A DNA stretch of 14,201 nt from Candidatus Eiseniibacteriota bacterium (lineage in GTDB: Bacteria > JAFGKV01). Positions 1,378 to 9,335 of this stretch are shown here, one piece after another (the first letter of the stretch is position 1; every line of letters begins with the position of its first letter). Below the pieces are notes generated by a model. The model did no database searches and was not told where the DNA came from. It worked only from the letters and a program-made list of their open reading frames with translations. The stretch lies in NCBI GenBank assembly GCA_025453925.1, contig JALOPK010000049.1, positions 1 through 14,201 of the forward strand, written 5' to 3'. Both the position numbers and the translations under genes were made by a program.

Positions 1378-2302
1378 GCGACTGGTCCGGCCCCCCACGC
1401 TCCATCCCGGAGACGCGGTTGCCGTGCTCTGCCCCGCCAGTCCCCCGGCGTCTCGATCCGTGCTGCGCAAGGCGGTGGCCGCTGCCCGGGTTCTTGGACT
1501 GGAACCGGTGCTCGGGCCGAATGCCGCGAAACGCTCTCGATTCCTCGCTGGCGCGGATGAGGAACGCCTCCACGATCTCCACTGGGCATTTCGAGACTCC
1601 TCCGTCAAGGGCATTCTCTCTGTCCGCGGCGGGTACGGCACGATCCGCCTTCTCCCGCGCGTCGACTGGACAATGATCAGACGGCATCCCAAGGTGCTGG
1701 TCGGCATGTCGGACATCACCGCATTTCAGGTCGCCGCGCTCAGCCGGGGTATGGTGACGTTCGGCGGGCCGCTTCTTGCGTTCGGCCCTCAGGTCGGGCT
1801 CACCGGGTGGGCCGCCGCGGGGCTGTGGGGCGCGGTCGGGGGGGGCGGTCAGGTGCACGTGTCCCGCGCCCCGGGGGATCCGAGTCCGACGACCATCACG
1901 CCAGGGCGAGCCCGCGGCCCGGTGGTCGGCGGTAATCTCACCACGCTGTTGTCGTTGGTGGGAACACCCTGGGAGTACCGACTCAAGGGGTGTATCGTGG
2001 TCCTTGAGGATGTGGGCGAGGCACCGTACCGCGTCGACCGGATGCTGACTCAGTTCATGCTCTCCGGACGCCTGGATGGCGTTGCCGGACTCGTCTTCGG
2101 GCGCTTTCACGAGTGCTTCAGAGAGTCGGAGCTGGAGGTCATCGACGTCATTGCGGAGCGGGTAGGCCCCCTCGCGGTGCCGGCGGTCTATGGACTGCCG
2201 TTTGGACATCAGCGTGATGTCGCCACGTGGCCGCAGGGCTGTCGCGGCGTGCTCGATGCCGACGCCGGCACCCTGAGTTTCCTCCGGTCGGGCGTCGTGT
2301 GA
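1361..2302 (+). CDS. ldcA: LD-carboxypeptidase (peptidase S66 family), muropeptide recycling
   Basis: S66 enzymes remove the terminal D-Ala from murein tetrapeptides in the cytoplasm so that the tripeptide can be reused. Numbering from GTG 1361 (313 aa), the N-terminus has the family pattern LHPGDAVAVLCPASP, and VRGGYGTIRLLP (88-99) follows. The nucleophile Ser117 is in VGMSDIT, the Glu is in LEDVGEAPYRVDRML (216-220 region), and the triad His283 is in GLPFGHQRD. All three elements of the S66 Ser-His-Glu triad are therefore present. GTG 1361 overlaps the ATPase gene by 17 nt and leaves a short leader before the conserved core. An upstream TTG at 1319 with an AAGGGA in front is an alternative that would add 14 residues. 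No signal peptide is visible. The gene ends in a GTGA overlap with the glycosidase. Confidence 0.88.
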   Translation: MPSATRRLVRPPTLHPGDAVAVLCPASPPASRSVLRKAVAAARVLGLEPVLGPNAAKRSRFLAGADEERLHDLHWAFRDSSVKGILSVRGGYGTIRLLPRVDWTMIRRHPKVLVGMSDITAFQVAALSRGMVTFGGPLLAFGPQVGLTGWAAAGLWGAVGGGGQVHVSRAPGDPSPTTITPGRARGPVVGGNLTTLLSLVGTPWEYRLKGCIVVLEDVGEAPYRVDRMLTQFMLSGRLDGVAGLVFGRFHECFRESELEVIDVIAERVGPLAVPAVYGLPFGHQRDVATWPQGCRGVLDADAGTLSFLRSGVV

Positions 2303-3708
2303 CGGCGGATCTGCGCCGGCTTCTTCCCCATCTCGTACCGGTTCTCGACCTCTCGAGGCCTGACTGGGCCGCCCTGTGGCAGTCGCTCCTCGCGGACGCA
2401 CGGGATCGAGGGCTCGGGGGGGTACTCCTCCGGCGAGGCCGCGGCGATCAATGGCGACGGATCAGTGAGGAGGCGATGGCCATTGGCGGCCAATCCCCGG
2501 TCCTGATGGCGGACCTCGAGCAGGGAGCCGCCAGCCAACTCGATGGCCGTTCTTGGTTTCCAAAGGCGCTCACCCTCGGCGCGACCCGCACGCCGGATCT
2601 GGCCCGTCGTCTGGGGGAGGCCATCGGGCGCCAGGCCCGATCTCTGGGGCTGCAGATGATCCTCGCGCCCGTTGCGGACGTTCTGCATCCCACGACCCAT
2701 GCCGTCATCGGCGCGCGGAGCTTCGGGGCGACGCCCCGCTCGGTCGGAGACATGGTGATCGCGTTCATACGGGGCTGTCAGGACCAAGGGGTGACGGCCG
2801 TCGTCAAGCATTTCCCCGGCCACGGCCCATGCGAAGTCGATTCCCACCACGCCATGGGGCACATGAAGGTCAGTCGGAAAGGCTGGCGCGAAACGGACGG
2901 ACTCCCTTTCCGAATGGCCATCGAGTCTGGTGTCGGGGCGGTCATGGTCGGACACCTGTGGCACGAAGGCCTTGACCCCGGAGTCCCGAGGCCGGCATCC
3001 CGAAGCCCTGTCGTCATGCATGATCTGCTCCGGCGAGACCTCGGTTTCCGGGGGACCGTCCTGACCGACAGCCTGGAAATGGTGGGTGCAGGAGGCGGTG
3101 GCGCGGCAACGGCACGACTGGCTGTGGAGGCCGGCGCTGACCTGGTGATCGGCCCTGACATTGGCGTACCCCGTGGGTCCGGCACCGCGCCGCTCCGCGA
3201 TGTGGCGGGGTGCGCGGGGAAGGCCGGACAGCTCGCTCGGGAGATCGCGCACGCGGCCGTTTCCTGGCTCGCGTGCCAATCCGTTCCGCCGAACGAGCTC
3301 TTCCCCGTCGTTCTGCGGGTCATTCCCGACCGATGGGGACGCACGGAGTGGGCGGCGCCACTGGTGGCATCGTTGCAGGCCCGCGGGTGCACGAACGTCG
3401 AGGGTCGCCGACTCATCGTGTCGGCGGCGAGTTCGAGCCCCGAGGCCGTTCTGGAGGCGATGGAGATCGCGCGGGCCGAGGCTCCACGCACAGAACCTGT
3501 TGTCGTGGCCTGTGGAGCCATCGATGTGGCCCGACGGGCTACGGGTCGCGCCAGGGTGGTGTTCATCGGCGATGCGACCGCAGCTTCGCAGGAGGCGGTC
3601 GTCATGCTCCTGACGAATGAGATCTCCCACCGAGGAAGCCCCGATCTCCCCACTTCGCCTTCTCCGCTTCACGGCGGAGGGGCATCCTCAACCGGACGCG
3701 GGGCGTGA
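2299..3708 (+). CDS. nagZ: Glycoside hydrolase family 3, NagZ-like beta-N-acetylglucosaminidase
   Basis: NagZ removes GlcNAc from GlcNAc-anhydroMurNAc-peptides during peptidoglycan recycling. The GTG start at 2299 overlaps the LD-carboxypeptidase TGA (GTGA), giving 469 aa and clear translational coupling. The GH3 barrel shows the NagZ signature KHFPGHG (170-176) followed by DSHH (181-184). That is the loop holding the Asp-His dyad that serves as general acid/base in this subfamily. The nucleophile Asp257 lies in LTDSLEM. Residues from about 345 to 450 look like the extra alpha/beta C-terminal domain seen in two-domain NagZ/GH3 enzymes. The last ~25 residues are Pro/Ser/Gly-rich, unlike the rest, and overlie a hairpin. 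No signal peptide is seen, so it should act in the cytoplasm beside LdcA. Other GH3 specificities are possible, but the DSH motif favours NagZ. Confidence 0.87.
   Translation: MTADLRRLLPHLVPVLDLSRPDWAALWQSLLADARDRGLGGVLLRRGRGDQWRRISEEAMAIGGQSPVLMADLEQGAASQLDGRSWFPKALTLGATRTPDLARRLGEAIGRQARSLGLQMILAPVADVLHPTTHAVIGARSFGATPRSVGDMVIAFIRGCQDQGVTAVVKHFPGHGPCEVDSHHAMGHMKVSRKGWRETDGLPFRMAIESGVGAVMVGHLWHEGLDPGVPRPASRSPVVMHDLLRRDLGFRGTVLTDSLEMVGAGGGGAATARLAVEAGADLVIGPDIGVPRGSGTAPLRDVAGCAGKAGQLAREIAHAAVSWLACQSVPPNELFPVVLRVIPDRWGRTEWAAPLVASLQARGCTNVEGRRLIVSAASSSPEAVLEAMEIARAEAPRTEPVVVACGAIDVARRATGRARVVFIGDATAASQEAVVMLLTNEISHRGSPDLPTSPSPLHGGGASSTGRGA
3662..3679 (+). repeat. Small GC hairpin in the 3' end of the nagZ-like gene
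   Basis: CTCCGC (3662-3667) and GCGGAG (3674-3679) form a 6-bp stem with a 6-nt loop, flanked by C-rich and G-rich sequence. It lies about 30 nt before the stop of the GH3 gene and underlies its low-complexity tail. It may be a REP-like element or a transcript-end structure. No T-run follows. Confidence 0.3.
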
Positions 3709-3943: not shown

Positions 3944-4072
3944 GTGATACCCCGTCCTGCAATGGCTCAAGGATCTTGTGCCGGGCATGCCGCCACTCAC
4001 CTTTCGTCCAGAGTCATCCCCATCACCGTGGCGACAGATGTGCACGCCGGGATGGTGTCTGTTGCTTCATGA
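3944..4072 (+). CDS. Possible 42-aa leader peptide upstream of dapF (unrecognised)
   Basis: GTG 3944 follows a near-perfect Shine-Dalgarno sequence, and the frame runs to a TGA at 4070-4072, just 19 nt before the likely dapF start at 4092. The peptide starts MIPRPAMAQGSC and ends DVHAGMVSVAS. It has no transmembrane segment, no known motif and only one Cys, and I do not recognise it. Its placement suggests either a translated leader coupled to dapF or a short real protein. The frame is also open upstream to an ATG at 3839, but the ribosome-binding site argues for 3944. The call rests on the binding site and spacing only, not on protein similarity. Confidence 0.35.
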   Translation: MIPRPAMAQGSCAGHAATHLSSRVIPITVATDVHAGMVSVAS

Positions 4073-4091
4073 CCTGCGTCGCGTTTCGGAG

Positions 4092-4964
4092 TTGGGTCTC
4101 TGGTTTGCCAAGGTTGAGGCATTGGGCAATGATCTGGTGTGGCTGCTTGATCCTGCCGAGGTGCTGACTGTGCAGTCCTACAGCCGGCATGCGCCGGCGT
4201 TGTGCGACCGGCATACAGGGATCGGCGCGGACGGTCTGGTGCTCTGGGACGGCTGCGAGTCCGATCCCGAGCTGTGGTTCATCAACGCAGACGGATCCCC
4301 TGCGGAGGTGTGCGGGAACGGCCTCCGCGCGATCGCGGTGGCGGGGAGAGACATTGGCCTATTCTCTCAGGATGAATTCGCGTTCCGAAGCGGTGGAATC
4401 GTATTCCCGGTCGTCGTTGGAGGTTCCGGAAAGCCTGCTGCCGCGTGCCTCGGCCTGCCGGGGTTCCCATGCGACGGCGCCGTGGAGGAAACCCTGCGGG
4501 GATGGGGGATCACCGGCATGCTGGTCACCATGCCCAACCCGCACATCGTGATCCTCGACGGGCCCCTGGATCGTGGGACGCGAGAGTCCCTGGCCGTGAG
4601 GTCGGCGGGGCTGCTGCCAGGAGGCGCCAACGTGGGGTTCTGCGCGGTCCAGGCGGGTGAGCTCGACCTAGAAGTGTGGGAGCGGGGCGTAGGGTGGACC
4701 CGCGCGTGCGGCAGCGGAGCCGCGGCCGCAGCGGCGGCGGCACTCCGCCGGGGAGCCCTGGCCCGCGGCGTCACAGTGGTCCGGCAGCCTGGCGGCACGC
4801 TCCGGACATGGCTCGACGAGCAGGACAGATCCTGGATCGAAGGCGATGCCTCGCTGGTCTTCGTCGGCTTCATGCGCGCGTGCAGTCCGGCGCACCTCGG
4901 GTGCGCTCCCGAAGCCCTGCATGAGGACGCCGGACGGAACCGTGGTTCCTCGTCGGTGTGCTGA
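4092..4964 (+). CDS. dapF: Diaminopimelate epimerase
   Basis: DapF converts LL- to meso-diaminopimelate for peptidoglycan and lysine. Numbered from TTG 4092 (290 aa), the protein starts with the family pattern FAKVEALGND. It contains RHTGIGADGLV (40-50), the first catalytic Cys74 in NADGSPAEVCGNGLR, the MPNPH segment (147-151), and the second catalytic Cys206 in ERGVGWTRACGSG. Both halves of the two-Cys acid/base pair are intact, followed by an alanine run. About 27 residues after the usual end (GDASLVFVGF) are extra. The start is uncertain. TTG 4092 fits family length but has poorly spaced ribosome-binding sequence. In-frame ATG 4038 would add 18 unconserved residues, and GTG 3978 or ATG 3987 would add still more. 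A kinase gene follows after 23 nt. Confidence 0.9.
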   Translation: MGLWFAKVEALGNDLVWLLDPAEVLTVQSYSRHAPALCDRHTGIGADGLVLWDGCESDPELWFINADGSPAEVCGNGLRAIAVAGRDIGLFSQDEFAFRSGGIVFPVVVGGSGKPAAACLGLPGFPCDGAVEETLRGWGITGMLVTMPNPHIVILDGPLDRGTRESLAVRSAGLLPGGANVGFCAVQAGELDLEVWERGVGWTRACGSGAAAAAAAALRRGALARGVTVVRQPGGTLRTWLDEQDRSWIEGDASLVFVGFMRACSPAHLGCAPEALHEDAGRNRGSSSVC

Positions 4965-4987: not shown

Positions 4988-6157
4988 ATGGCCGACAGTG
5001 CGGATCAAGTGCCGGAGGACATTGTGCTGCTGGGTCTGCAGGAGGCAGACGTGGATATTGCCCAGGAGGCGCTGGCCGGGTACCGACTGCACGCGGTGGC
5101 GCGAGTCGCCCTTCTGCGGGAAATGCTCAAGGAGATGAAACCACGGGCGGTGGTGAGCGACATCTGGATCCGGGATGGGCACTGTGTGGAAGTGAAGGAC
5201 CTCCTGGCTGGAAGGAGCCCGCACACCATCATGCTGATCGTGGCGTCATCGCCGGAGGAGAATCTCGGCTCTCTGGACCTGGGTTCTCACCCGTTCATGG
5301 TGCTGCAGCGCCCCCTGCGGCGTCTGGAATTGGCCTCCGTGATCCAACAGGCCGGACAACTCTATGCCGCGCGTGCCCGGATGGCCGAGGCGGAGACCAC
5401 CGTCTCCTCGCTCCGGCGTGCGAATGAAGAGGCGACTCGGCTGAAATCCGAGTTCCTCTCGCTCATCAGCCACGAACTGCGGACACCGCTCACCGAAGTG
5501 ATCGGCTATTCGGAACTCCTGGCGGCGGGAAACGTCAGGCCGGAGCAGACGGTTGAATTCGCCGGGCACATCGTTCGAAGCGCCGCGCAACTCAAGTGTC
5601 TGATCGATGACCTGGTCACTCTCTCCAAGGCCGAGGCCGGCGTGCTCCCCATGGAAGTGAGCACCTTCCCTGCCGACCACGTTCTCCAGGGCAGAGTTGC
5701 CGACATGGTCAAGGATGCTCAGGGACGGGGGCTCACGGTGGAGACCAGAGTCGATGCCCGCGCCGGCCTGCTCACCGGTGACAGTGGGAAGCTTTCCAAG
5801 GTTCTGCAGAACCTGCTCTCCAACGCGATCAAGTTCAGTCCCCCCGGCGGGACCGTCACCATCGAGATCAGCGATGCAGGATCCGCGGTTCTGTTCAGCG
5901 TTTCCGATGCGGGAAAGGGCATCCCGCAGGAGAGGATGAGAGACTTGTTCCTCGCATTTCGCCAGGAGGATAGCTCGGATCGTCGGCAGTTCGGAGGGCT
6001 TGGCATCGGGCTGTCCATCGTCAAGCACTTCGTCGGGCTCCACGGCGGCAGTGTCCGGGTGGCCGGCAGGCCGGACCGAGGAACGGCGTTCAGCTTCGTG
6101 ATCCCGCGCCGACAGTCCAAGGCCCCGGATGTCTCCCGCAAGCCGAGCACGCCATGA
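4988..6157 (+). CDS. Histidine kinase with degenerate N-terminal receiver domain
   Basis: This 389-aa protein is a cytoplasmic sensor kinase; no membrane segment is visible. Residues ~10-125 have a receiver-like alternation with the phospho-acceptor position kept as Asp58 (AVVSDIW). The N-terminal acidic pair is lost (IVLLGLQEAD) and the usual KPF is QRPL, so it is a pseudo-receiver or atypical receiver. A short coiled linker (~128-153) leads to HisKA with H162 in SLISHELRTPL. The HATPase_c domain has the N-box VLQNLLSNAIKFSP (272-285), G1 SDAGKGIP (306-313), F-box FLAFRQED and G2 GGLGIGLSIV (336-345). All are intact. ATG 4988 is chosen because CTGGAGCG precedes it at good spacing; ATG 4967 and GTG 4958 are in-frame alternatives. 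The stop overlaps the next gene by ATGA, which strongly implies that the downstream receiver protein is its partner. Confidence 0.92.
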   Translation: MADSADQVPEDIVLLGLQEADVDIAQEALAGYRLHAVARVALLREMLKEMKPRAVVSDIWIRDGHCVEVKDLLAGRSPHTIMLIVASSPEENLGSLDLGSHPFMVLQRPLRRLELASVIQQAGQLYAARARMAEAETTVSSLRRANEEATRLKSEFLSLISHELRTPLTEVIGYSELLAAGNVRPEQTVEFAGHIVRSAAQLKCLIDDLVTLSKAEAGVLPMEVSTFPADHVLQGRVADMVKDAQGRGLTVETRVDARAGLLTGDSGKLSKVLQNLLSNAIKFSPPGGTVTIEISDAGSAVLFSVSDAGKGIPQERMRDLFLAFRQEDSSDRRQFGGLGIGLSIVKHFVGLHGGSVRVAGRPDRGTAFSFVIPRRQSKAPDVSRKPSTP

Positions 6158-7959
6158 GCGACGGCCGGATCCTCGTCATCGACGATGACCCGCTCATCCT
6201 CAAGCTCCTTCAGACCACCATCGAACGGAGCGGGTTCGAGGTGCTCACCGCATCCGATGGCGAACAGGGCTTGGAGGTGATCCGCGGGGAGCACCCCGAC
6301 ATGGTCATCAGTGACATCATGATGCCGCGAGTGGATGGCTTTGAGCTCATCCGGCGTCTTCGAGGCGACCGTCTGGTGGGCGCGACTCCCCTGATGATGC
6401 TGAGCGCAAAGGGTGAGGAAGAGGACAAGGTCAAAGGCCTTGAGATGGGAGCGGACGATTATCTCACCAAGCCGTTCAGCCCCCGGGAGCTCGTGGCGAG
6501 GGTCAGGGCGCTGATCCGCCGCAAGGCCGCGGTCCGCGAGCGGGTCCCCACGACGTCGCAGGCCCCTTTCACCGTGGAGGGACTCACCCATCTGGCTGAA
6601 TACCGATTCGACAACTACGTCGTCGGTGCCGGCAACCGGTCTGCGGTGGAAGCCGCAAAGGCCGCCGCGGAGAGCCCCGGCAATCGGTTCAATCCACTGT
6701 TCCTGTTTGGCGGCTCCGGTCTGGGGAAGACCCACTTGATGTGTGCCCTCGCCAATGAGACCTACTCCCGGCACCCCGAATCCCGCATACGGTACGTATC
6801 GTCTGAGGTGTTCAGTCAGCAGGTGCTCGACGCCCACGAACGCCGCGAGGTTGAAGACCTGAAGCTGCACTACACATCGTTGGAGCTCCTGATGGTCGAC
6901 GACATCCAGTTCTTGGCGATATCCCCCAGCCTCCAGATGGTGGCGGCCGAGATCCTCTATGATATGTATGAGCACGGCAAGCAGATCGTCATCACCAGCG
7001 ATCGCAAGCCCGAGGAGCTCGAGGCGCTGTCGGCCGAAATGACCAGTGGGTTCGCATTCGGGCTCGTGGTGGAAATCGACAGGCCCGACGCCACGCTGCG
7101 ATCTCGTATCCTGCGGTTCAAGGCGAGGCAGCGGGGGTGGGATATCAGTGAGGAAGTGTTGGACTATTTGGCGACCCGTCTGGACACCGATGTGCGGAGC
7201 ATTGAGGGCGCCGCCAGGAAGCTGGTGGCCATGAAGGCATTTGGTGGGGCCACGGTCGACCGGTCCACCGTGGACGATCTGGTCAAGACCAACGCTCATG
7301 TGGATGAACCCCCCGAAGGCAAAGCGGGAAACAGCGCGCGGGAGGGCGCGGTTCCCGTCACCAGCCGTGTAGGCGAGCCCCCTGCGGAGAGCGACACTCT
7401 GGTGCAGGAGTTCTCCCGGGAGATCCCCGTCGTCCGGATCGTGGGCTATCCGGAGGAGGTCGCCCACTCCATGCCGGAGCAAGCGGCGCCGGTGGTGGTT
7501 CTGGGGCCATCCGCCGCTCTGGTCATGGACACGGTGGAGGCCCTGGTGGGGAAACGCGAACATGCCCCCCGCATCCCCGAAGGCGACCGCTGGGCATATC
7601 TGGTGCACGTGGAAGGGAAAGCCCGTTGGGTTATCGTCGGCTCCGTGTCCTGGACCCCCGGCGACGATCTCAGCAAGGCCGCTGAGGCCAGTTACCCGCC
7701 AACATACCTGGTTGTGCTCGACAGCATGAGCCCCAAGATCACCGAGGCGCGCAAGCTGGTGGCCACGCTTCCCCAGGGGAGAGCTGCTGCCGTGGTGGTC
7801 ATGGTGAGCGTGGGGGAGGATGGTCTCCAGGCGGCAAAGGAGACGTTGTCCCGGAGTCTCAGGAGGTTGTTCAGAGTGCCCGAGGACATCCCGCTGCTGG
7901 TGAGCGGCGGAGTCGGGACTGCGGAAAGCAGGAAGTGGCTCAGGCTCGCCCGGGGATGA
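6154..7959 (+). CDS. Response regulator fused to DnaA-like AAA+ ATPase and a C-terminal GTPase-like domain
   Basis: This 601-aa fusion starts with a complete receiver (1-122): DDD at 10-12, phospho-acceptor Asp54 in ISDIMMP, Ser84 and Lys106 in LTKPF. A linker leads to a DnaA domain III-type AAA+ module (~148-380). Its motifs are EYRFDNYVVGAGN, Walker A GGSGLGKTH (186-194), Walker B LLMVDDIQFL (245-254), sensor 1 VITSDR (279-284) and sensor 2 Arg348 in DVRSIEGA. Box VII reads AEMTSGFAFG, so the DnaA arginine-finger position (SRF) is SGF (Gly299). DnaA domain I and the helix-turn-helix domain IV are absent. After a low-complexity linker (381-422), residues ~425-595 resemble an eroded translational GTPase domain (WTPG at 500-503). 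ATG 6154 overlaps the kinase stop. A role like Hda or another initiator regulator, switched by phosphorylation, is inference. I know of no characterised relative with this architecture. Confidence 0.9.
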   Translation: MSDGRILVIDDDPLILKLLQTTIERSGFEVLTASDGEQGLEVIRGEHPDMVISDIMMPRVDGFELIRRLRGDRLVGATPLMMLSAKGEEEDKVKGLEMGADDYLTKPFSPRELVARVRALIRRKAAVRERVPTTSQAPFTVEGLTHLAEYRFDNYVVGAGNRSAVEAAKAAAESPGNRFNPLFLFGGSGLGKTHLMCALANETYSRHPESRIRYVSSEVFSQQVLDAHERREVEDLKLHYTSLELLMVDDIQFLAISPSLQMVAAEILYDMYEHGKQIVITSDRKPEELEALSAEMTSGFAFGLVVEIDRPDATLRSRILRFKARQRGWDISEEVLDYLATRLDTDVRSIEGAARKLVAMKAFGGATVDRSTVDDLVKTNAHVDEPPEGKAGNSAREGAVPVTSRVGEPPAESDTLVQEFSREIPVVRIVGYPEEVAHSMPEQAAPVVVLGPSAALVMDTVEALVGKREHAPRIPEGDRWAYLVHVEGKARWVIVGSVSWTPGDDLSKAAEASYPPTYLVVLDSMSPKITEARKLVATLPQGRAAAVVVMVSVGEDGLQAAKETLSRSLRRLFRVPEDIPLLVSGGVGTAESRKWLRLARG

Positions 7960-9335
7960 GCGTCCGCCGAACGTTGTTCACGGGGGGAACCGTGATCAGC
8001 GAGTCCGGCGCGACGAGGGAGGATCTCCTGGTGGAGGATGGCGCCGTCGTGGGTCGCGGCCAGGTGGTGTCACCCGCCGCGGATGTGGTGGATTGCAGTG
8101 GACTCCTGATACTGCCGGGCCTTGTCGATCCACATGTTCACTTCTGCCTCGAGGCGAACGGACTGGCGACCGCCGATGACGTGGCGACCGGTTCCCGATC
8201 TGCGGTAGTGGGAGGAGTCACCACTGTGGCCGACTTCACTGAGCCCGCTGGCGACTCCGTGCGTCGAACCGTGATGGCGCACCGCCGCACCTGGCAGCCC
8301 GCCGCGTGCGATTGGGCGGCGCACGTCGTGGTCGCCGCGTGCGACGGCGCCGGGGCGAGCGAGATTTCGGAACTGGCAGCGGCCGGCGAGCTGCGGTCGG
8401 TAAAAGTGTTCACGGCCTATCGTCGCCGGGGGCTCTTTTCTGATGATGAGGCGCTATTCCGCGTCCTAGAAGCATCCGCCGGCGGGGAGTTCGTCACCTT
8501 GGTTCATGCCGAAAACGAGGGAATCATCGCCGTGCTGGAGGGTCGCTTCCGCGGGGGATGCGCAGGCGCCATTGCCGTGGCGCGATCCAGACCTCCGGAA
8601 GCCGAGGAAGAGGCGGTGAACCGCGTGCTCGTTTTCGCGGCCTCCTGCCAGGGCCGGGTGCACCTGGTCCATCTCTCGTGCGAGGGTTCGGTGCGACGCC
8701 TCGCTGAGGGTCGCGCAGCGGGAATCTGGGCGAGCGGGGAAACGTGTCCGCACTACCTGGTTCTCACGGAGGATCTGCTGGCAGGTTCTGACGGGCACCG
8801 GTACGCCACCGCTCCTCCGCTCCGGACTGCCGCGCACGCCGCGGCGCTCTGGACGGCTTTGGCCCGGCGCGCCGTGCAGGTGATTGCCACCGATAGCTGC
8901 GGGTTCTCCGCCACGGCCAAGGACCAGTGGGCGGGCGACTTCACCCGAATTCCGGGGGGAGTGCCCGGCGTCGAGGTGAGTCTCCGTGTGATGATGGGGG
9001 AAGGCGTCCAGCGGGGACGGATCGGTATGCCCGATCTGGTGCGGCTGATGTCAGGCAATCCTGCCCGGCTGTTGGGGGCCTATCCCCGCAAGGGCTGTCT
9101 CGATGTCGGCAGCGACGCGGACATCATCGTTCTTGACCCGGAAGGCCGTGCGCCCGTAGATACGCACGCGCTCACGTCCCGGGCCGGATGGAGCCCCTAT
9201 CAAGGGCTGATGACCATTCCGCCGCCGGAGCGAGTGTACCTCCGCGGCACACAGGTTGCGGCCCGAGGGAGGTATGTTGGTGAGGGTGTCTCCGGGCGTC
9301 CAATCGAGAGGGGACGTCCGATCTATCCTCTGTGA
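7956..9335 (+). CDS. Hydantoinase/dihydropyrimidinase-family cyclic amidohydrolase
   Basis: This 459-aa TIM-barrel amidohydrolase should open a cyclic amide such as dihydropyrimidine or hydantoin with a binuclear metal centre. The metal ligands are all visible: His60 and His62 in GLVDPHVHF, the carboxylated Lys150 in SVKVFTAY (with Tyr155), His184 in VHAEN, His239 in VHLSC and Asp313 in ATDSCGF. CPHYLVLT (264-271) and GGVPGVEVSLR are further family motifs. The usual TDHCPF and IPNG segments read TDSCGF and IPGG, so the substrate may differ from uracil-type rings. Dihydroorotase and allantoinase are alternatives, but KVFxAY and the length favour the hydantoinase branch. ATG 7956 overlaps the preceding stop (ATGA), so it is translated with the signalling genes. 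No other pyrimidine-degradation gene is adjacent. Confidence 0.87.
   Translation: MSVRRTLFTGGTVISESGATREDLLVEDGAVVGRGQVVSPAADVVDCSGLLILPGLVDPHVHFCLEANGLATADDVATGSRSAVVGGVTTVADFTEPAGDSVRRTVMAHRRTWQPAACDWAAHVVVAACDGAGASEISELAAAGELRSVKVFTAYRRRGLFSDDEALFRVLEASAGGEFVTLVHAENEGIIAVLEGRFRGGCAGAIAVARSRPPEAEEEAVNRVLVFAASCQGRVHLVHLSCEGSVRRLAEGRAAGIWASGETCPHYLVLTEDLLAGSDGHRYATAPPLRTAAHAAALWTALARRAVQVIATDSCGFSATAKDQWAGDFTRIPGGVPGVEVSLRVMMGEGVQRGRIGMPDLVRLMSGNPARLLGAYPRKGCLDVGSDADIIVLDPEGRAPVDTHALTSRAGWSPYQGLMTIPPPERVYLRGTQVAARGRYVGEGVSGRPIERGRPIYPL

Follow-up and report, generated by a model that had tools for sequence, protein, structure and literature searches.

What does the ATPase engine of the replication initiator DnaA do when it is fused to a phosphorylation-responsive receiver? 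The question is raised by a gene at positions 6154 to 7959 of the window, by which we mean the whole 14,201-nucleotide stretch of Candidatus Eiseniibacteriota DNA that was analyzed. It encodes, in one open reading frame without interruption, a protein of 601 residues in which a receiver (REC) is followed by a AAA+ module of the DnaA domain III type, a linker, and a C-terminal domain; this and the other window features described here lie on the forward strand. The AAA+ module of DnaA is normally regarded as a part of the replication machinery, with Hda as its main paralog, and the earlier note on this DNA proposed that the fusion is a phospho-switched replication regulator.

A Pfam scan of the protein gives two matches, both far above cut-off: Response_reg at residues 6 to 118 (E 6.5e-33), corresponding to the receiver (6166 to 6525), and Bac_DnaA at residues 149 to 307 (E 1.2e-46), corresponding to the AAA+ module (6586 to 7299). 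A disordered, fast-evolving linker of about 30 residues follows (7300 to 7389; pLDDT below 50 at residues 382 to 412), and leads into a C-terminal domain with no Pfam match (7390 to 7956). Because the pTM of the full-length model is low (0.45), the arrangement of the domains within the chain is not fixed by it. The single frame, the Pfam matches, and the residue map bear out the original report of an intact receiver (Asp54, Lys106) and an in-frame DnaA domain III-type ATPase. The concern that the frame might be an assembly join of two genes proved unfounded: an assembly chimera is ruled out by the same architecture in 12 genes, with three genomes from separate assemblies contributing four each. 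A chance fusion or pseudogene is likewise ruled out by dN/dS values of about 0.1 in all folded domains. Compared with the same-genus ortholog, omega is 0.06 for the receiver, 0.09 for the AAA+ module, 0.11 for the C-terminal domain, 0.56 for the linker (which is 26% identical), and 0.11 for the whole gene, and the folded domains of the other three ortholog pairs behave likewise (0.05 to 0.23 overall), all these values being approximate, with dS near or above saturation. The low omega of the folded domains argues against decay and for purifying selection.

The receiver carries all the residues associated with phosphorylation, namely the acidic pair D10/D11, the phospho-acceptor D54 (codon 6313 to 6315), S84, and K106 (codon 6469 to 6471). 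D10, D11, D54, and K106 are invariant in 12 of 12 full-length family members, and S84 is replaced by threonine in one. Its closest solved relatives include receivers of the OmpR/PhoB class (the PhoP response regulator, PDB 1mvo, E 7e-40 by PDB sequence comparison), a class that dimerizes on the alpha4-beta5-alpha5 face (PMC12632262).

Directly upstream, as the earlier note had recognized, lies the gene of a histidine kinase, probably cytosolic (4988 to 6157; HisKA E 5.7e-15, HATPase_c E 1.1e-27), whose stop overlaps the start of the regulator by 4 bp (ATGA) and whose HisKA histidine is encoded at 5471 to 5473 within the motif SHELRTP. This kinase-regulator gene order is kept in three genomes. 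The N-terminal part of the kinase (about 4988 to 5347) finds only receiver domains among its PDB profile matches (best E 2.6e-4), and both orthologs carry glutamate at the phospho-Asp position and arginine at the Lys position; we read this part as a pseudo-receiver because of that glutamate. Judged from its sequence, with acid pocket, phospho-Asp, Thr/Ser, and Lys in place and a kinase adjacent, the window protein would thus qualify as a two-component response regulator. Other REC-DnaA paralogs adjoin different kinases, including a hybrid kinase that carries an Hpt domain besides two receivers and a kinase with a cNMP-binding domain, which supports the view that these proteins are response regulators serving different inputs.

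The surroundings of the window copy point away from replication. Upstream are an LD-carboxypeptidase of family S66 (1319 to 2302; Peptidase_S66 and S66C), conserved as a neighbor in the genus (synteny in G001), a GH3/NagZ-like beta-N-acetylhexosaminidase (2227 to 3708; synteny in G001 and G002), and the diaminopimelate epimerase DapF (4062 to 4964; TIGR00652 E 4e-40, above cut-off). Downstream is a dihydropyrimidinase/hydantoinase-like amidohydrolase (7935 to 9335; TIGR02033 E 3e-102, below its cut-off). All three genomes share the gene succession GH3 glucosaminidase, DapF, kinase, regulator, hydantoinase-like amidohydrolase, S8 peptidase, although in G002 an additional gene precedes DapF. Two genera thus have the operon in common. 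It contains no replication genes, its context being one of cell-wall recycling and hydantoinase genes, and these conserved neighbors hint that the input of the window copy may be cell-wall turnover.

In structural alignment, the AAA+ module superimposes on domain III of Bacillus subtilis DnaA with a Z score of 25.6 and an rmsd of 2.7 over 234 residues at 35% identity. The elements that bind ATP in cis are retained: Walker A (G186 to H194), Walker B (D249/D250), and sensor 2 (R348, equivalent to R313 in B. subtilis numbering) are kept in all REC members, and ATP binding is therefore expected. In B. subtilis DnaA, I190 and K222 are essential for contact with single-stranded DNA, and R202, R206, F218, H231, R264, L269, G317, and R321 for the filament (PMC6669920). 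We mapped these positions across the family, using the true DnaA of the same genomes as a control. The control proteins keep nearly all of them, with valine for I190 in two of the three, whereas the corresponding residues of the window protein, taken in the sequence above, are L, S, K, T, F, E, G, L, G, and K. The single-stranded DNA positions are thus L225 and S257, and the position of K222 is S, A, T, or G in all REC members, none of which retains R206 or H231. The arginine finger R264 has become G299 in the window protein and is kept in 3 of the 12 full-length paralogs, so ATP hydrolysis in trans, or within mixed assemblies, could persist in some of these. The Pfam scan also finds no DNA-binding helix-turn-helix domain IV in the window protein. 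With domain IV, the single-stranded DNA contact, key filament contacts, and the arginine finger gone, neither DNA opening nor a DnaA-type filament would be expected, and the protein does not look like a DnaA initiator.

These observations bear on the proposal that the AAA+ module docks on DnaA and caps or poisons its filament, or aids its ATP hydrolysis in the manner of Hda, thereby passing the kinase signal straight to oriC. The module is indeed nearer to DnaA than to Hda: the DnaA model TIGR00362 scores E 4e-74, although it covers only positions 101 to 337 of 437 and falls below cut-off, and the Hda model TIGR03420 scores E 1e-26 (93.6 bits against a cut-off of 194.8). Some filament-interface positions survive (F218, L269, G317, and a lysine at R321), and in two genomes of the genus about 13 kb separate the true dnaA from a REC-DnaA paralog (L009, 2189 to 4039 and 16500 to 17828; L170). 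A direct signal-to-initiator route is nevertheless weakened by the absence of domain IV and by the replacement of K222, R206, H231, and R264 while the organism's own DnaA keeps them. Hda-like control would be expected to require both an arginine finger and a clamp-binding motif; the window protein has neither, which leaves Hda-like action, as in regulatory inactivation of DnaA (RIDA), unsupported and sets the protein, as far as its residues tell, apart from Hda. The conserved operon without replication genes also counts against such a role, and the presence in each genome of several paralogs, served by different kinases, does not speak for a single point of initiator control. We therefore regard a replication regulator as unlikely; an interaction with DnaA is still compatible with the sequence.

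The C-terminal domain was described in the earlier note as a further GTPase-like domain of about 170 residues; the fold holds up, and the nucleotide-binding motifs are missing. Modeled alone from 12 sequences, the domain reaches a pLDDT of 90.9 and a pTM of 0.89, with a Ras-like order of strands and helices. Foldseek and VIA-align both list small or related GTPases, and small GTPases make up the 50 best PDB matches of the structural aligner, with YsxC/EngB at the top (Z 12.2, rmsd 3.4, 163 residues); a PDB profile search gives a weak match to the GTPase Der (E 0.017). We scored the motifs G1 (GxxxxGK[ST]), G3 (DxxG), and G4 ([NT]KxD). All 12 full-length members have lost them: G1 reads GPSAALVMD, its lysine never being present, the Asp of G3 is replaced by tryptophan (W500), and no G4 NKxD remains. 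A true GTPase is thus rejected on the absent motifs although the fold matches, and we refer to the domain as a pseudo-GTPase. It is seen only in REC-DnaA fusions, in the three genomes, and viral contigs yielded no relative of it. Roadblock/LC7 proteins occur in few copies in two of the genomes and are absent from G002.

The 12 full-length REC-DnaA-pseudo-GTPase members are 48 to 78% identical to the window protein. Our comparison set comprised three genomes of the family, the next level of sampling being the domain. Nine Bac_DnaA places were counted in the genome of the window (3.9 Mb, 82% complete): one true DnaA (TIGR00362, 477 bits; cut-off 344), four full-length fusions, a short REC-AAA+ protein, a protein whose receiver is degenerate, and two MshEN-AAA+ proteins. 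The second genome of the genus has 13 such places and the third genome of the family 12. The protein with the degenerate receiver is present in all three (L014, 1850 to 3322; L177, 5932 to 7452; L176, 5271 to 6785); its acid pocket is non-acidic, with glutamine for the phospho-Asp, which makes it a pseudo-receiver version, and the copy in the window's genome has a proline-rich tail. A tree of 88 AAA+ domains, in which the branches are long, places the 18 REC members together in a single group (support 98/89), which two MshEN-DnaA sequences join (99/94); canonical DnaA, including that of the same genome, stands apart. The family is a lineage-specific radiation of DnaA-type AAA+ modules on receivers or MshEN domains, besides one true dnaA per genome.

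Outside the family, no receiver-DnaA fusion was found in about 870 sampled genomes (386 domain-wide, plus two other phyla with 296 and 195), in searches that scored the best three candidates per genome in one scan and four to six in the others and may therefore miss rare fusions. The best outside-family matches listed are DnaA-type proteins that align from the AAA+ domain onward. A contig scan with the pattern DDIQFLA gave ordinary DnaA matches only, because the pattern is common to DnaA. The best matches among plasmid records cover under half of the query, none covering 80%, and PADLOC and PHROGs searches gave no useful match. A literature search, with subscription journals mostly outside its reach, found no description of receiver-DnaA or MshEN-DnaA fusions, in keeping with the earlier note, whose author knew of no characterized protein with the order REC-DnaA-GTPase-like.

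The MshEN-DnaA proteins form operon-like clusters (L164, G002:C14:1-20000, 2623 to 19244; L163, G001:C299:70000-84340, 4062 to 14341) that adjoin a pseudopilin-like protein, a prepilin peptidase, and an MshEN-PilB type ATPase. One of them has 1993 residues, comprising an MshEN domain, a DnaA AAA+ module, long coiled-coil-like repeats, and a second DnaA AAA+ module, and retains an intact arginine finger. DnaA modules inside a pilus or secretion operon seem not to have been described. MshEN-DnaA fusions also occur in families f25 (G026, G173, G311) and f117 (G118, G255, G382) at loci L195 to L200 and L225 to L230, with open frames of 1700 to 1800 residues in f25 that contain two weaker Bac_DnaA domains. 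DnaA-type AAA+ proteins without domain IV and with a conserved C-terminal domain (...VGYFYPQ...) are found in f185, f68, and f117 (L043, L036, L060).

A second alternative is that the REC-DnaA proteins join these MshEN-DnaA proteins in mixed rings or scaffolds, so that phosphorylation and c-di-GMP would feed one surface- or pilus-linked DnaA-like machine. The arginine finger is present and absent in a complementary way, as a mixed ring would require, and the pilus-associated genomic setting and the joining of one MshEN-DnaA group to the REC clade would fit as well. The REC-DnaA genes and the pilus cluster, however, share no operon, c-di-GMP binding by the MshEN-DnaA proteins is putative, and the tree grouping rests on long branches, so we hold this assembly to be improbable. 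An NtrC-like transcription activator, or some other DNA-binding response regulator with a AAA+ module of another kind, has very little to commend it: the REC-AAA+ order fits and NtrX is among the structural matches (Z 22), but its rmsd of 18 means that the match is driven by separate domains, and the Pfam scan finds no sigma54-activator AAA+ and no C-terminal helix-turn-helix or other DNA-binding domain, the AAA+ module being of the DnaA and not the NtrC type.

We favor, as the probable function, a response regulator that acts through protein contacts, its output being a DnaA-derived switch that binds ATP, is gated by phosphorylation, and is joined to a pseudo-GTPase interaction domain. The overlapping kinase would phosphorylate D54 of the OmpR/PhoB-like receiver, and phosphorylation would alter receiver dimerization and, with it, the state of the attached AAA+ module. 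That module, its cis ATP-binding elements kept, would act as an ATP-liganded conformational switch, with output through contacts of the C-terminal pseudo-GTPase and perhaps also through mixed assembly with further DnaA-derived AAA+ proteins in the same cell. The retention of the cis ATP motifs against the loss of the trans and DNA residues, with the organism's own DnaA as a positive control, counts for this switch reading, as do the intact receivers, the overlapping kinase in its conserved order, the different kinases beside the paralogs, the GTPase fold without its motifs, purifying selection on each folded domain, and the single REC clade apart from canonical DnaA. What survives of the initial proposal is hence a phosphorylation input fused to a DnaA-type AAA+ module beside its kinase, without the control of replication. 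As the DnaA engine is here deprived of its DNA-acting parts, replication machinery seems to be re-used for other signaling. More tentatively, the DnaA AAA+ engine could serve in several lineages as a general signaling NTPase on sensory inputs (receivers, or MshEN for c-di-GMP) outside replication, coupled here to a pseudo-GTPase output and possibly to mixed assemblies with pilus-linked DnaA-like proteins. If this is true, up to a dozen DnaA-type AAA+ modules per genome on receivers or MshEN domains would mean that the initiator engine can be exapted as a signaling switch, stripped in the receiver branch of its DNA residues and most of its trans-ATPase residues. The radiation lets one ask which features of DnaA serve switching and which only replication. 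The fusion also places a second nucleotide-switch fold, its motifs lost, in the same chain as the AAA+ module.

Each part of the protein recalls a known system. As in the NtrC/NtrX-type response regulators, a receiver precedes a AAA+ ATPase in one chain, but the AAA+ module belongs to a different clade, there is no DNA-binding domain, and the pseudo-GTPase is extra. The C-terminal domain shares its fold with YsxC/EngB and other Ras-like small GTPases (Z up to 12.2), unlike which it lacks G1, G3, and G4, at about 8 to 13% identity. The RomR-MglA polarity modules of Myxococcus (PMC3441718) likewise couple receiver signaling to a Ras-like domain; this is an analogy only, as they are separate proteins with a true GTPase and no DnaA module. 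Like the DnaA inactivator Hda, the window protein is a DnaA-type AAA+ protein without the helix-turn-helix domain IV; unlike Hda, it has no clamp motif or arginine finger, scores far better as DnaA, and has a receiver and a pseudo-GTPase added. With domain III of B. subtilis DnaA (PDB 8bv3/8btg) it shares the AAA+ fold, 35% identity over about 235 residues, Walker A and B, and sensor 2. It differs from DnaA in lacking domains I, II, and IV, in the replacement of K222, R206, H231, and R264, and in the fusion of this module to a receiver on one side and a pseudo-GTPase on the other.
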